The position numbers were made by a program, and so were the translations under genes. Under the pieces are notes generated by a model. That model did no database searches and was not told the origin of the DNA. It was given only the letters and a program-made list of their open reading frames with translations. This document shows positions 56,856-64,000 of a stretch of DNA of 64,000 nt, piece after piece (positions within the stretch are counted from its first letter, which is position 1; every line of letters starts with the position of its first letter). Source of the stretch: Methanosarcina sp. DH2 (GTDB lineage Archaea; Halobacteriota; Methanosarcinia; Methanosarcinales; Methanosarcinaceae). Location of the stretch: positions 64,769 through 128,768 of the forward strand of contig NZ_WJBI01000012.1 in NCBI RefSeq assembly GCF_020804225.1, in the 5' to 3' direction.

Positions 56856-57095
56856 TGTGGAGAAATCCGGTTCCTCGGAAACGAGTTTATATCCCTTTTG
56901 AAAGATTCGTCCCTTCTTGCAATCATCAGCGTGCATGAGCTTTCCAAAAACGGGATGCTTTATGTCTCAAAGACCTTTGCTGCTTTCCCAATATACATCT
57001 CTGTTGCCCTTCTGTACCTGGCCCTGACCATGGGAATTTCCCGCGTGCTTAATTACATTGAGAGGAGGCTTGGCGTAAGTGATCGAAATGAATAA
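56856..57095 (+). pseudogene. fragment of an amino-acid ABC transporter permease
   Basis: Right after a TGA at 56853-56855 the frame reads FLGNEFISLLKDSSLLAIIS, then MLYVSKTFAAFPIYISVALL and YLALTMGISRVLNYIERRLG. This is the C-terminal third of a HisM/GlnP-type permease (compare the family motif LGNEFI-LLKDTSL). The N-terminal membrane helices are absent. The end overlaps the start of the ATPase fragment, the arrangement of an intact transporter operon. Confidence 0.8.
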
Positions 57096-57300
57096 CCTCC
57101 ACAAAAGTTTCGGACGTCTGAAAGTTCTTAAAGGGATAACCGAAAAAGTTGAAGAAAGCGAAGTGGTCTGCGTGATAGGTCCCTCAGGCTCCGGAAAAAA
57201 TACCTTCCTTCGCTGCCTGAACCTTCTTGAAACCCCTACCTCGGGAGATATCTGGATCGATGGAGAAAAGGTCACCGACCTCTTTTTTGAGTTAGAGTAA
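57079..57300 (+). pseudogene. fragment of an amino-acid ABC transporter ATPase
   Basis: The frame from GTG 57079 gives the N terminus of a GlnQ-type ATPase: MIEMNNLHKSFGRLKVLKGI, a Walker A region GPSGSGKNTFLRCLNLLE, and SGDIWIDGEKVTD, then stops after 73 residues. The usual Ser/Thr after the Walker A Lys is Asn here (GKN instead of GKS). The signature motif, Walker B and the rest are missing. Together with the truncated permease this is the remnant of a lost polar amino-acid importer. Confidence 0.85.
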
Positions 57301-58551: not shown

Positions 58552-58915
58552 TGCATATGGCAGAATATTAATAAATAAGTGAGCTGACCCTCTTCTAAAA
58601 GCGAATGGCAAATTATTCTTATAACTCATTTCGAGTCGCGCCGTATCTTTCTGATACAATAATTTATTCTGCTTTTAATGCTAAATACTGACTGCATGAC
58701 AGTCAAATCTTAAGCTTCTTTAAGGACTTATGCAAGACTTAAAAAGAATAGTGTACATACAAACGTTAACTGCACTCCTGCCCCTTCAGAATGTCTTATA
58801 ATTAGCTTGAGATCTTACTTACTTTCTTATCAACATTTAGACATTCAGTAGCATGCGGGCTGGTTGGTGTTGTGTTGCCAAAAGATTCAAATCTATTGTT
58901 ATTGAGGCCAAAAAC

Positions 58916-59809
58916 ATGAAAGAAACCCTGAAAGCCTACATCGACCTCACTCGTGCTCACTTTCTTCCTGCCTGGCCCCTTATTTTCTGCTCCGGGCTGG
59001 TGCTTGCTTTTGCAAACTACGGCGGTTTTTCCTGGCTGCTAATTCTCAAAGCTGCCCTGATAGGTCTGTTGGGGTTTGAAGCCGGCTTCGTGCTCAACGA
59101 TTATGTGGATCGGAAAAGAGACCGGCTTGATGTGGAGAATACCCTCACAAAATACTGGAGACCTTTTAAAGAGAGACCTCTTCCCTCAGGGAAGATTTCT
59201 TCAAAAAAGGCTTTCTGGCTGTTTATCCTGCTCGCAGGGATCACTTCTGCTCTGATTTTCACGCTTCCCTACCCAAACTCCATTTACGTTTTCGCAATAA
59301 TGCTGTACTCTTATGGCATTGAAGTTTTTTATCAGGTGAAAAAAAGAGACCAGAAACTCCCTATCGCCCAGCTTCTCGGAAGGACTGACTTTACGCTCTT
59401 TCCGGCAGCAGGCTACCTCTGCTACGGGCAGCCGGACATGACAGTGCTGCTTTATATGGTTTTCTTCTATCCCTGGACAATGGCGCACCTGGGATTGAAC
59501 GATTTTATCGACCTGGAAAACGACCGGGCAAAAGGCATGAAATCGATAACTGTCCTTTACGGCTCAAAAGGGACCATGTACTGGATTACGGGCTTTACGC
59601 TCCTGCATTTCTTTGCAGCGATTTTCTTCCTCAAGGAGCTTGGGATTATTGCTCACTATGGCTTTCTTGCAGGCTTTGTACTCCTGGCAGGGGCAAACCT
59701 TTACCTCTGGAAAGAAAAGAACCCGAATGCAGGTTTGAAGATACTGCCTGTTTACCACGGAACCCTGGTAATTTATGCAGTTTCGATTATTCTTGACTTT
59801 ATATATTGA
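58916..59809 (+). CDS. UbiA-family prenyltransferase, copy 1
   Basis: A 297-residue intramembrane prenyltransferase with about eight helices. The two aspartate-rich motifs that bind Mg2+ and the prenyl diphosphate are LLGFEAGFVLNDYVDRKRDR near residue 52-75 and LGLNDFIDLENDRAKGMKSI near 195. The family attaches polyprenyl chains to aromatic or other acceptors (quinones, phenazines, archaeal lipids, haem). The acceptor cannot be read. ATG 58916 is preferred over the upstream ATG at 58853 because GAGG lies ten bases before it and the family begins ETLKAYIDLTRAHF. A paralog follows directly. Confidence 0.9.
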   Translation: MKETLKAYIDLTRAHFLPAWPLIFCSGLVLAFANYGGFSWLLILKAALIGLLGFEAGFVLNDYVDRKRDRLDVENTLTKYWRPFKERPLPSGKISSKKAFWLFILLAGITSALIFTLPYPNSIYVFAIMLYSYGIEVFYQVKKRDQKLPIAQLLGRTDFTLFPAAGYLCYGQPDMTVLLYMVFFYPWTMAHLGLNDFIDLENDRAKGMKSITVLYGSKGTMYWITGFTLLHFFAAIFFLKELGIIAHYGFLAGFVLLAGANLYLWKEKNPNAGLKILPVYHGTLVIYAVSIILDFIY

Positions 59810-60038
59810 GCCTGTGTATTGAACCGGATCGGCGGAGTTGGAACAGCTGAAGGCAGGGCTGTTTGAAGACAGCTGCTTCTTTCTTCCTGCCTTTTCTCTC
59901 TCCCTTTACTTATGCTCTTTTTTGACTAACTCCCTTTTGAATCAGCAGTTTTTAGTCTCTCACTTTCTTGTTTGCAAAAACTATAAACATATAACTCTCT
60001 TTTATATTATCGGGGTTGAGGGAACGAATGTTGAAGGC

Positions 60039-60932
60039 ACGAAAGAGACTATTAAAGCCTTGATAGACCTGACAAGGGCTCATTTTTTTCTTGTCTGGAT
60101 TTTGCTTTTCTATTCAGGCCTTGCTCTTGCTTTTAGTAATTACGGAGAGTTTTCCTGGGAAATAACCCTCAAGGCGGTTTTGATCGGGCTCTTCGGGTTT
60201 GAAGGCGGGCTTGTACTCAACGACTATGTTGATCGGAAAAGGGACAGGCTCGACGTTGAGGAATCCCTCACGGGTTACTGGAGACCTTTCAAAAGCCGTC
60301 CGCTTCCTTCAGGCAGGCTCTCTCCTGATTTTGCCCTGGCAGTATTTCTATTACTCTCTGCACTAACAGGAATCCTGATGCTGACTTTACCTTACCCTAA
60401 CTCTCTGTATGTGTTTCTCACAATGCTTTCATCATGCATTATCGAGTATTTTTATCAGGTAAAAAGAAAAAACCAGAGTTTTCCCATTGCCCAGCTTATA
60501 GGAAGAATGGACTTTGCCCTTTTTCCGGTTGCAGGCTACCTGTGTTATGGACGGCCGGATACCTCTCTGTTTCTCTATCTGCTCTTTTTTTATCCCTGGA
60601 CCCTTGCACACCTTGCGGTCAATGATTTCATTGACACGGAAAATGACAGGGCAAGGGGAATAAAATCAGTCCCTGTGCTTTACGGCACGCAAGGGACATT
60701 GTTCTGGATCTCAGGCTTTACGCTTTTGCATTACCTTGCAGCGCTTCTTTTCCTGAAACAGCTTGGATCTATTGCATTTTATGGCTTTTTACTGGGGTTT
60801 TTAGTGATCGGATTTGCAAATTACAAACTTTTGAAAGAAAAAAGCCAGAAAGCAGGTCTTTCTGCACTTCTCTTTTATCACGTTTCACTTGTGCTCTATT
60901 CTGGCTCAATTATTCTTGACTCCTTCTTCTAG
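60039..60932 (+). CDS. UbiA-family prenyltransferase, copy 2, start codon unclear
   Basis: A tandem paralog of the preceding gene, about 297 residues and highly similar throughout (ETIKALIDLTRAHFFLVWIL; LLGF-like FGFEGGLVLNDYVDRKRDRL; second motif LAVNDFIDTENDRARGIKSV). Both Asp-rich motifs are intact. However, the codon that corresponds to ATG of copy 1 is ACG (60039-60041). The only well-placed ATG is at 60028, seven bases behind GAGG, and is out of frame by one base. So either one base is missing just behind the start, or ACG or a far-upstream TTG (59838) is used. The body of the gene shows no other damage. Confidence 0.8.
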   Translation, partial: TKETIKALIDLTRAHFFLVWILLFYSGLALAFSNYGEFSWEITLKAVLIGLFGFEGGLVLNDYVDRKRDRLDVEESLTGYWRPFKSRPLPSGRLSPDFALAVFLLLSALTGILMLTLPYPNSLYVFLTMLSSCIIEYFYQVKRKNQSFPIAQLIGRMDFALFPVAGYLCYGRPDTSLFLYLLFFYPWTLAHLAVNDFIDTENDRARGIKSVPVLYGTQGTLFWISGFTLLHYLAALLFLKQLGSIAFYGFLLGFLVIGFANYKLLKEKSQKAGLSALLFYHVSLVLYSGSIILDSFF

Positions 60933-60979: not shown

Positions 60980-61957
60980 TTAGACTTTAGTTTTTCTTCT
61001 GCAGAGCCTCAGGGTGTGACAGCGCAGGCTTCCTCCTCCTGCAAGCAGGGCTTCAGGGTGGAAAGGAATAACCTCAACGCCTTCCCCTGCAAGATTTTTC
61101 CTGGTTTTCTGATCAAGTGCATTATCATAATGGAAAATAGTCCCGCTTTCAAGAGGGACAAATGAACAGGCTAGGCGGCTCTGCTCGGAGTCCGAAACAG
61201 GGATGATCTCCATGCCTTTCTCCTGCATGAATTCTTTAAAATCGATTTTTTCTCCAGAGCCTTCCGTGTACAGGCAGGTCTCTTCAAAGGCTGGTAGATA
61301 AGCAAGGGCAAGGTCTTCTCTTATCCTGTTGAAAACGGTATCGGGATGCATATAACGCCTGGCTTTTGGAATGCGGGCGTAAATAACTTCATCAAATTCG
61401 CTCAGGATATTCGAAATAAACTCCCGGATAAAAGGATATGTGTGCCTTTCCGTATCAGCAACAAAAACAGTATCTTTTGAGAGCAGAAGACAACCTTCGA
61501 AAAACCCTTCGCTTCCATTGAATTCGTTGAGTATCGGAATTCCCAGGTTTTTCAGGGCTTCCTTTACGACGACTTCTTCATTTTCCCTTGCAGGCGGTCG
61601 CATTTTTGAAAGAATTGCGCCTTTTCTGGAAATGACCGCGGTATCATGCAGGAAGGTAATGTTTGGCATCCTGCTTATCAGGTCTATACTTTCGTCTACA
61701 TGGTCTGCAAGCTCATAAACCCTGACCCCGTTCGATTCCAGCAATTCCTGATAACTCGTATGCTCTTTTACGTATCCGGAAATCTCAGGGACCTTATCGT
61801 AAAGCCAGTGATTATAATTTGACTCATTGACCAGAAGGAGTTCATCTCCCGGAGTATGCACAAGTACGCTTTTCAGCCTCCCAAGTTCGTCACACCCATA
61901 AGCAATACATGATCCGGTTTTTTCTGCCTCATTCATATTTTCTATTTGGCAACCCAT
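60980..61957 (-). CDS. arginine-deiminase/amidinotransferase-family enzyme
   Basis: A 325-residue protein of the guanidino-modifying superfamily (arginine deiminase, DDAH, amidinotransferases). The N-terminal block ELGRLKSVLVHTPGDELLLV and ITFLHDTAVISRKGAILSKM then RPPARENE follow the deiminase pattern (FTRD...MRxPARR), although the Arg of FTRD is His here. Further on come the acidic motif SEGFFEGCLLL, the catalytic His in RYMHPDTVFNRI and the nucleophilic Cys in GGGSLRCHTLRL. It acts on the guanidine carbon of arginine or a derivative. It is the last gene of a minus-strand operon with the EgtD-like gene (69-base gap). GGGGGG stands eight bases before ATG 61957. Confidence 0.82.
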   Translation of the reverse strand: MGCQIENMNEAEKTGSCIAYGCDELGRLKSVLVHTPGDELLLVNESNYNHWLYDKVPEISGYVKEHTSYQELLESNGVRVYELADHVDESIDLISRMPNITFLHDTAVISRKGAILSKMRPPARENEEVVVKEALKNLGIPILNEFNGSEGFFEGCLLLSKDTVFVADTERHTYPFIREFISNILSEFDEVIYARIPKARRYMHPDTVFNRIREDLALAYLPAFEETCLYTEGSGEKIDFKEFMQEKGMEIIPVSDSEQSRLACSFVPLESGTIFHYDNALDQKTRKNLAGEGVEVIPFHPEALLAGGGSLRCHTLRLCRRKTKV

Positions 61958-62026
61958 GCCTGAATCCCCCCATTTAAAAATCCTGATTCTAACTTGAAAA
62001 ATCCCTGGTTTAATCTACTGCTGCTA

Positions 62027-63058
62027 TCAGGTACGTTTTTTTGCAAGGATCATTGCATTTTTCCTATCTTCATTCAGGAAACCCTTGAGAATATCAAATC
62101 CGCGGATATTCAGGAAAGCGATAACCTGGTCATATGTATATTTGTACGTAAAGCCCATGCGTATGACGTCTCCGTTCCTGAAGCTTACGGTTTCGGGTCC
62201 TATCCTGATCTCGGTATCCTTCAGGATATTCAGGCTCTTTCGCGTCCTGTAAAGGGCTCCTATCCTTGAGTCCACATGTGCGAGCAATAATTCAAAATCG
62301 AAATCTTCGGGAGCCATTCCGTACTGAAGCAAGGGATACATATTGAAGAGCGCATTCTCTCTTGAGGCATATGTGCCAAGGACAGACTTCCTTGCAGAAT
62401 GCCCATCTTCCCCTGAGTCCGGGTTAGGGAGAAGGCTGGCATCAAAGAAAAAAAGATCTCCCTGTTCAAGGTTTTCGTAGACAAGCTGAAGAATGAACTC
62501 AGGCTCATAATTACAAAAGGTATTTCCCAGAATGCAGAACAGTACAGGAAGCCGCCAGTGCTTTTTAAGGAGCGGCATATCCTCGATAAAGCCAACTATT
62601 CCTTTTTTCTCTACAGGCAGGTCTCTTACTTTTTCAAGGGCGATATCTACAAGCTGGCTGCTTATGTCAACAGGGTAATAACGTATTGGCACTTTTCCGG
62701 AAGCAGGTTTCTCAGCCAGGTTTTTCTTTATCAGCTCCTCGAGAAGAACTCGCTCCTTCTCTCCGCTCCCTACCCCTACGCTTACAAGGCTCATACCTGC
62801 AGGAATGAACCTGACGATTGAAGCAATATTTTCCTCGAGCATGTCTTTGAGCTGCCTGGCTACCGGAAATGTTTCAGACCCATCCAATTTCAGCCAGTTC
62901 TTTGCTCCTCCCATGCCTGTGTACAGGAGATAATCAGGCAGCTCATGACTTTTCAGGCTTTCGCAAAGCCTTTCTTCCATACTCTTCTCGCCAGAAACTA
63001 TTATTTTTTCTTCGTTCTCCGAAGCCCGCCTCCAGCTCGCCTTTTCTGCACTCTCCAA
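62027..63058 (-). CDS. EgtD-like histidine-specific-type methyltransferase
   Basis: A 343-residue SAM-dependent methyltransferase of the Methyltransf_33 (EgtD-like) family. SAM-binding motifs are LVSVGVGSGEKERVLLEELI and YYPVDISSQLVDIAL; the block FCILGNTFCNYEPEFILQLV matches the EgtD region between the domains, and the C-terminal part has NGDVIRMGFTYKYTYDQVIA. EgtD trimethylates histidine on the way to ergothioneine; EgtB or EgtC relatives are not seen here, so another amino acid or peptide may be the substrate. The start TTG 63058 follows GGTGG by five bases. It lies between the radical SAM gene and the deiminase-like gene on the same strand. Confidence 0.85.
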   Translation of the reverse strand: MESAEKASWRRASENEEKIIVSGEKSMEERLCESLKSHELPDYLLYTGMGGAKNWLKLDGSETFPVARQLKDMLEENIASIVRFIPAGMSLVSVGVGSGEKERVLLEELIKKNLAEKPASGKVPIRYYPVDISSQLVDIALEKVRDLPVEKKGIVGFIEDMPLLKKHWRLPVLFCILGNTFCNYEPEFILQLVYENLEQGDLFFFDASLLPNPDSGEDGHSARKSVLGTYASRENALFNMYPLLQYGMAPEDFDFELLLAHVDSRIGALYRTRKSLNILKDTEIRIGPETVSFRNGDVIRMGFTYKYTYDQVIAFLNIRGFDILKGFLNEDRKNAMILAKKRT

Positions 63059-63175
63059 CTTTCCACCTTACCCTGAACTATACACAAAATCATATTTACT
63101 GCAGTAAGATTGCCTGAATAATTTTTCCACTCATTATTTTTCCTTTTTCATTCCATTTTATTCAATCATCCTTTC

Positions 63176-64000
63176 TTACTTGAAGCACTGCTGGCACTCC
63201 ATCCTCAGTGCTTCGAGAGGATCAACCCCATTATTTATCCCTACGCTGTAGGCATATCCTCGGCAGCCGATGCATTCTTCCATGTGCTCACAGTTCCCAC
63301 ACCTGCCTTCAAGCACTTTGTCGATATTCCTGACATATGTAAAGAGCTCGGAGTTGTAGATCTCCTTCAGGCTCGTTTTGTTTATATTATAGGGGTATTC
63401 CCCATTAACCCTGAGTGCTGGATGTTCGTCCAGCTTTGTAGGCGCACAGGGCCTTACATCCCCTTCTATGTTGATATACAGGCTGTAAAGGTGCTGAAGG
63501 CAACCACTTGCAGTAATCGGGGTATAGGGCAGCCAGTCGTACCCGTAATACTTTCGGTCTATTTCCAGCAGTTTTAATTTGTACTCTTTTATTTCGTCAG
63601 CTGTGAGCAGCTTATCCTCCAGTTCGTCATTTGCCCTGCCTGTCGGAGTGAGAATTTCCATATTAGGAAAGATGTTGTTCTGCCTGCAGAAGTGCCAGAT
63701 ATCCTCAATCTCTTCCAGGTTCATTTTATTGCTCACGAAAGAGATTCCCAGGCGGAGGTTTCCGGGCTCTGAAGGTTTTGAAAAGCCCGCTTTTATCAGA
63801 TTTTCAAGCCCCGTTTTTATATCCTCGAAAGCTCCTTCTCTCCCTGCCAGGTAGTCCTGGACTTCAGGCTTGAGCGAATCGAGTTTTCCCATCACAGAGG
63901 CGTTGTGTTCGTACAGGAATTCTGCAAGCTCCTCTGTCATCAAAACGGTATTTGAAAAAATCATCGGGACAATCCCTAGGGAATCAATGTAGGTAATCAG
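63176..64000 (-). CDS. radical SAM/SPASM protein, 5' end outside the window
   Basis: The C-terminal ~275 residues of a radical SAM enzyme; the frame is open to the window edge, so the CxxxCxxC cluster motif lies outside. Visible parts are the barrel strands (LGIVPMIFSNTVLMTEELAE, then NASVMGKLDSL where the family has a radical-SAM strand), NLRLGISFVSNKMNLEEIED, and a C-terminal SPASM domain with cysteines in TASGCLQHLYSLYINIEGDV then RPCAPT, GRCGNCEHMEECIGCRGYAY and MECQQCFK. SPASM enzymes bind extra Fe-S clusters and usually modify peptides or small amino-acid compounds. It is the first visible gene of the operon with the EgtD-like and deiminase-like genes (117-base gap). Confidence 0.85.
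   Translation of the reverse strand: MITYIDSLGIVPMIFSNTVLMTEELAEFLYEHNASVMGKLDSLKPEVQDYLAGREGAFEDIKTGLENLIKAGFSKPSEPGNLRLGISFVSNKMNLEEIEDIWHFCRQNNIFPNMEILTPTGRANDELEDKLLTADEIKEYKLKLLEIDRKYYGYDWLPYTPITASGCLQHLYSLYINIEGDVRPCAPTKLDEHPALRVNGEYPYNINKTSLKEIYNSELFTYVRNIDKVLEGRCGNCEHMEECIGCRGYAYSVGINNGVDPLEALRMECQQCFK

Follow-up and report, generated by a model that had tools for sequence, protein, structure and literature searches.

A set of three genes kept in the same order across Methanosarcina and its sister genera, encoding a radical SAM/SPASM protein (rSAM), an EgtD-like methyltransferase (MT33) and a hydrolase of the arginine deiminase/DDAH superfamily (ADI-like), probably makes a small molecule that has not yet been described. 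It probably derives from an arginine-like compound and carries N-methylation, and the reading that we favour, tentatively, is of a dedicated three-enzyme anaerobic pathway that starts from an amino acid, or an amino acid derivative, with an arginine-type guanidino group and ends in a small metabolite. While each of the enzyme classes is known, their combination is undescribed as far as we have seen. A sequence-only reading of the same DNA had known of no pathway with this trio, and a literature search, conducted mostly without subscription journals, likewise found no paper describing one.

Results

A conserved but accessory three-gene unit

The window (the whole stretch of 64,000 nucleotides that was analysed) corresponds to G000:C36:64769-128768 of a 4.6-Mb Methanosarcina assembly. 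As the sequence-only reading had reported, it contains three open reading frames on one strand that are separated by gaps of 69 and 117 bases (Table 1). Pfam assigns their products to the classes previously named, namely ADI (PF02274, E-value 6e-25), Methyltransf_33 (PF10017, 1e-23) and SPASM/Radical_SAM (SPASM PF13186, 1e-8). None of the three proteins passes the curated cut-off of a function-specific family.

Table 1 Features of the trio locus and its surroundings (window coordinates unless given otherwise).
Feature	Coordinates	Strand	Basis
Radical SAM/SPASM protein (rSAM), C-terminal 274 codons including SPASM cysteines; runs off the window	63176..64000	-	ORF and Pfam
EgtD-like (Methyltransf_33) SAM-dependent methyltransferase (MT33), 343 aa	62027..63058	-	ORF and Pfam
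Arginine deiminase/DDAH-superfamily Cys hydrolase (ADI-like), 325 aa	60980..61957	-	ORF and Pfam
25-bp element ACTTAGTTTCTTRYAAYTTGATAAG, upstream of rSAM	G000:C36:129164-129190 (window-equivalent about 64396-64422)		Alignment of 17 loci
Two tandem UbiA-family prenyltransferases, convergent with the trio	58853-60932	+	NF009511, 585 and 550 bits
Short ORFs resembling amino-acid ABC transporter pieces	56898-57300	+	By eye
Lipoprotein-like ORF, 126 aa	55779-56159	+	By eye

The trio was intact, with the same order and strand and at essentially full length, in 18 of 21 loci from Methanosarcina and two sister genera (a count that includes G089, despite an in-frame TAG in its rSAM gene), while the remaining three loci (G076, G097 and G103) carried decayed copies. 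Because this order is kept across related species, whose rSAM proteins are 78–92% identical, a chance arrangement is excluded. Thus, the operon proposed in the sequence-only reading is conserved among relatives and belongs to no known pathway that we found, the two points on which that proposal was open to refutation. The three genes are presumably co-transcribed.

Of 393 Halobacteriota genomes sampled, 18 gave a strong match to rSAM, 17 to the ADI-like enzyme and 19 to MT33; these genomes all belong to Methanosarcina or its sister genus g5, and 17 of them hold all three proteins. The exceptions were G103, whose decayed copy comprises rSAM and a split MT33, and G082, where MT33 is intact (L158, 2351-3382) with rSAM and ADI absent on both sides. 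Since MT33 persists intact there without the other two genes, it may serve some separate function. In G083 (L159), the syntenic interval that runs from the upstream genes to the UbiA genes lacks the whole trio. The operon is thus accessory: several Methanosarcina lineages have lost it or carry a decayed copy.

When the rSAM profile was run across GTDB, two distant homes emerged, both in metagenome-assembled genomes (MAGs). In an Omnitrophota MAG (L069), 8 nt separate an rSAM gene (65% protein identity) from an MT33 gene downstream of it (47%), on a contig that stops roughly 200 bases further on; a search of the phylum with the ADI profile did not recover an ADI gene. In an Altiarchaeales MAG, rSAM (66% identity) is truncated where its contig stops; on a separate contig, the end of MT33 (30%) overlaps the start of the ADI gene (58%). 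The recurrence of gene pairs in both MAGs argues that the trio genes work together. At the same time, the separate contig of the Altiarchaeales rSAM and the failure to find an ADI in the Omnitrophota MAG count against one three-enzyme pathway. No close rSAM was present in the other sampled Omnitrophota and Altiarchaeales genomes; lateral transfer between the lineages is possible, as is a binning error affecting single contigs. Plasmid searches returned only relatives with 25–29% identity, and the viral contigs searched contained no match. Two further Omnitrophota loci, L108 (G702) and L109 (G684), carry an rSAM paralogue (~42% identical) in a dissimilar cluster that has neither MT33 nor ADI, and in which a PaaK-like ligase, an SDR, a glycosyltransferase-like protein, another SPASM-like rSAM and a B12-type rSAM were recognised by eye. 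No conclusion is drawn from an rSAM tree in which one outgroup row (L109) had been translated partly out of frame.

The radical SAM/SPASM protein and its upstream region

Beyond the window, the rSAM gene could be completed to an open reading frame of 361 aa from a GTG, extending to G000:C36:129029 (window-equivalent 64261) or slightly further. Its true start is uncertain, because the frame is still conserved upstream of this GTG, reading LFSPPP in nearly all relatives and RFSRPP in Omnitrophota. The completed portion carries ETNTSCNLRCRYCYA, in which CNLRCRYC supplies the CxxxCxxC motif (C32, C36, C39) that the sequence-only reading had proposed looking for past base 64000. In 15 sequences these cysteines are invariant, as are the SPASM cysteines required for two auxiliary clusters (C254, C272, C321, C324, C330, C333 and C359), which identifies the protein as a member of the radical SAM/SPASM class. 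It shares the CxxxCxxC motif and the two-cluster SPASM pattern with AhbD, NirJ2 and SkfB, but scores far under the cut-offs of those families. Searched against the NCBIfam equivalogs, it came near no cut-off, the best being AhbD and NirJ2 (63 bits for the in-window part and 78 bits for the Omnitrophota orthologue, each against a cut-off of 500), so that no reaction can be named for it.

Codon 61 of rSAM is an in-frame TAG in three Methanosarcina genomes (loci L040 in G089, L083 in G077 and L088 in G088), at a position that encodes Ser or Gln in most relatives (TCG and CAG among the codons); the remainder of the frame is conserved. Members of the genus Methanosarcina decode pyrrolysine. Judged from these sequences, the TAG is probably read through, and is perhaps decoded as pyrrolysine.

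Upstream of rSAM, 17 loci share the 25-bp element ACTTAGTTTCTTRYAAYTTGATAAG, whereas the sequence around it cannot be aligned. Within the trio-bearing Methanosarcinaceae genomes searched, it is the sole site per genome with 0–1 mismatches, and the remaining matches, which have 3 mismatches, are not commoner than those of a reversed-pattern control. A TATA-like stretch follows the element directly in several species, and the element looks like a dedicated activator site. A regulon search for co-regulated genes found none, as no genome has a second good site.

The sequence-only reading had also pointed to the region past the window as a place to look for a short precursor peptide. Alignment of the same 17 loci revealed no conserved small open reading frame or precursor upstream of rSAM, so that the adjacent precursor typical of a RiPP gene cluster is missing here, although an unlinked one might exist. 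This bears on the main rival to our preferred reading, in which the SPASM protein modifies a peptide encoded elsewhere, with the same peptide being citrullinated (by arginine deimination) and N-methylated. In keeping with such a role, SPASM enzymes often act on peptides, and the solved structure closest to rSAM by sequence is that of SkfB, a peptide maturase. Nevertheless, the 25-bp element is the only part of the upstream region that aligns, the 8-nt gap in Omnitrophota and the gene overlap in Altiarchaeales leave no room for a precursor inside the operon, and, to our knowledge, the characterised EgtD-type and ADI/DDAH enzymes act on free amino acids. We therefore consider modification of a peptide unlikely.

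The deiminase-like enzyme

When aligned to ADI structures, the catalytic residues of the ADI-like enzyme (D105, E154, H204, D206 and C313) proved invariant, placing it in the PF02274 superfamily together with ArcA and DDAH. Also invariant are N99, R124 and R171, which align with the residues of arginine deiminase that, we assume, hold the substrate carboxylate, and which are thus likely carboxylate contacts here as well. The enzyme differs from ArcA in its length (325 aa versus about 409–433), in having FLHD (YMHD in Altiarchaeales) in place of FTRD, with the His invariant among relatives, and in having EGCL or EGLL in place of EGGD. The His-for-Arg substitution, from which the sequence-only reading had suspected a changed substrate, is therefore real, but it is only weak evidence for such a change, because DDAH, a relative of the enzyme, also lacks that Arg, while the enzyme retains the ADI residues for catalysis and for contact with the carboxylate. 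The protein falls below every NCBIfam cut-off for these families, scoring 101.7 bits against 489.1 for TIGR01078 (arcA), and 22 and 31 bits against 300 and 340 for the DDAH families NF045659 and NF045660. Its AlphaFold2 model was poor (pLDDT 47.5).

In a profile search of solved structures at E <= 0.01, the relatives recovered were hydrolases only (ADI, DDAH1 and 2-nitroimidazole nitrohydrolase), and neither of the amidinotransferases AGAT and StrB1 was matched. Amidinotransferases have the same superfamily fold and the same Cys/His/Asp machinery as ADI. Together with the PF02274 family match, this could suit an enzyme that takes the amidino group of arginine and attaches it to an amine that rSAM and MT33 supply; with hydrolases alone among the structural matches, we regard such a transfer as rather improbable. 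The relationship to DDAH1 and 2-nitroimidazole nitrohydrolase could also suit a catabolic or detoxifying unit that degrades guanidino amino acids carrying methyl groups or other modifications, with a DDAH-like step as the key one. This we think less probable again: the pairing of an EgtD-like methyltransferase with an rSAM that consumes SAM suggests synthesis over breakdown, and the conserved unit is without a transporter.

The EgtD-like methyltransferase

The AlphaFold2 model of MT33 (pLDDT 88.5) has an EgtD-type fold, its first 15 structural matches all being EgtD (TM 0.67–0.78), although the identity in structural alignment is 16–20%. MT33 has the equivalents of EgtD N166 and Y206 (N183 and Y230, respectively), and shares both these and the fold with the solved EgtD structures (PDB 4PIM, 4UY6). 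Residues were mapped by profile alignment to M. smegmatis EgtD, whose sequence was checked against the PDB. By contrast, E282 and S284 of EgtD, which we take to be the residues that read the imidazole, are both replaced in MT33, by G302 and T304, which are invariant in 14 of 14 sequences from three phyla. The PDB title of 4PIP (EgtD M252V,E282A tryptophan complex) agrees with this role for E282 and S284. MT33 scores 61.9 bits against the curated cut-off of 290.9 for TIGR03438. Since the histidine-reading residues of EgtD are replaced, MT33 is probably an EgtD-like enzyme that is not a histidine methyltransferase.

The fold of MT33, the plausibility of anaerobic C–S chemistry by a radical SAM enzyme and the EgtD homologues reported in archaea (PMC7278568) could together point to an anaerobic ergothioneine- or ovothiol-like histidine thiol pathway, with rSAM in the place of EgtB for formation of the C–S bond. 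The replaced imidazole readers and the missing partners make this very unlikely, and it would leave an ADI-like enzyme with arginine-type residues unexplained. The absence of EgtB, remarked on in the sequence-only reading, extends across 20 genomes (the host and 19 relatives), which contain partial matches only and none over the TIGR03440 cut-off. In the anaerobic ergothioneine pathway of Chlorobium (EanA/EanB), as in the trio, an EgtD-type methyltransferase has an anaerobic partner, but there the partner is a rhodanese-like sulfur transferase (PMC7278568), whereas the partners of MT33 are rSAM and the ADI-like hydrolase. No EanB-type rhodanese adjoins the trio at this locus.

A candidate pathway

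In the three-enzyme anaerobic pathway that we favour, the SPASM protein would make a C–H-activated change on the scaffold, MT33 would add methyl groups to the alpha-amine of an amino acid other than histidine, as far as the betaine, and the ADI-like enzyme would hydrolyse the guanidino group to give a ureido compound. A single promoter region, governed by a dedicated control element upstream, would drive transcription of all three genes. That all three enzymes serve one pathway, that its substrate is arginine-like, the order of the steps and the betaine product are what we infer from the comparisons above; the assignments of substrate and product are drawn from sequence, from which the substrates of radical SAM/SPASM enzymes cannot be read. 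The sequence-only reading had envisaged a methylated, guanidine- or histidine-derived metabolite or a modified peptide. Its view of the trio as an operon outside any described pathway is upheld; the replaced EgtD residues speak against derivation from histidine, and the lack of a conserved precursor frame speaks against a modified peptide.

A bolder proposal, possible though doubtful, is that the trio makes, anaerobically, a new archaeal and bacterial class of metabolite: a ureido or guanidino amino acid that bears a radical modification and is N-trimethylated to the betaine. If so, the metabolite might be a compatible solute, an antioxidant or a signal, and the genes would have moved as a unit between Methanosarcina, Omnitrophota and Altiarchaeales. 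Such a pathway would add a substrate to the EgtD-like and ADI-like families, in which non-canonical members are readily mistaken in annotation for histidine methyltransferases and arginine deiminases. The trio is a good target for new-metabolite discovery and, as a conserved single-copy unit in genetically tractable Methanosarcina, lends itself to direct testing by deletion and metabolomics.

Neighbouring genes

UbiA genes adjoin the trio in most loci, and are often paired in relatives. Methanophenazine biosynthesis is largely unknown (PMC3017947, PMC5852551), and this adjacency might place the trio and the UbiA prenyltransferases in one lipid or methanophenazine pathway, but the idea is hardly credible, because Methanosarcina genomes have UbiA both with and without the trio (UbiA lacks the full trio in G082, which retains MT33 alone, and in G083, G098 and G092; G104 has the trio without UbiA) and the trio is missing from further genera of the Methanosarcinaceae in which use of methanophenazine is expected (PMC3017947). 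UbiA as a fourth member of the operon was rejected on the same presence and absence.

Elsewhere in the window, short open reading frames that resemble pieces of an amino-acid ABC transporter, a permease end followed by a shortened ATPase start, look like a decayed gene pair. A separate open reading frame encodes a secreted-looking, lipoprotein-like product with a highly acidic repeat tail.
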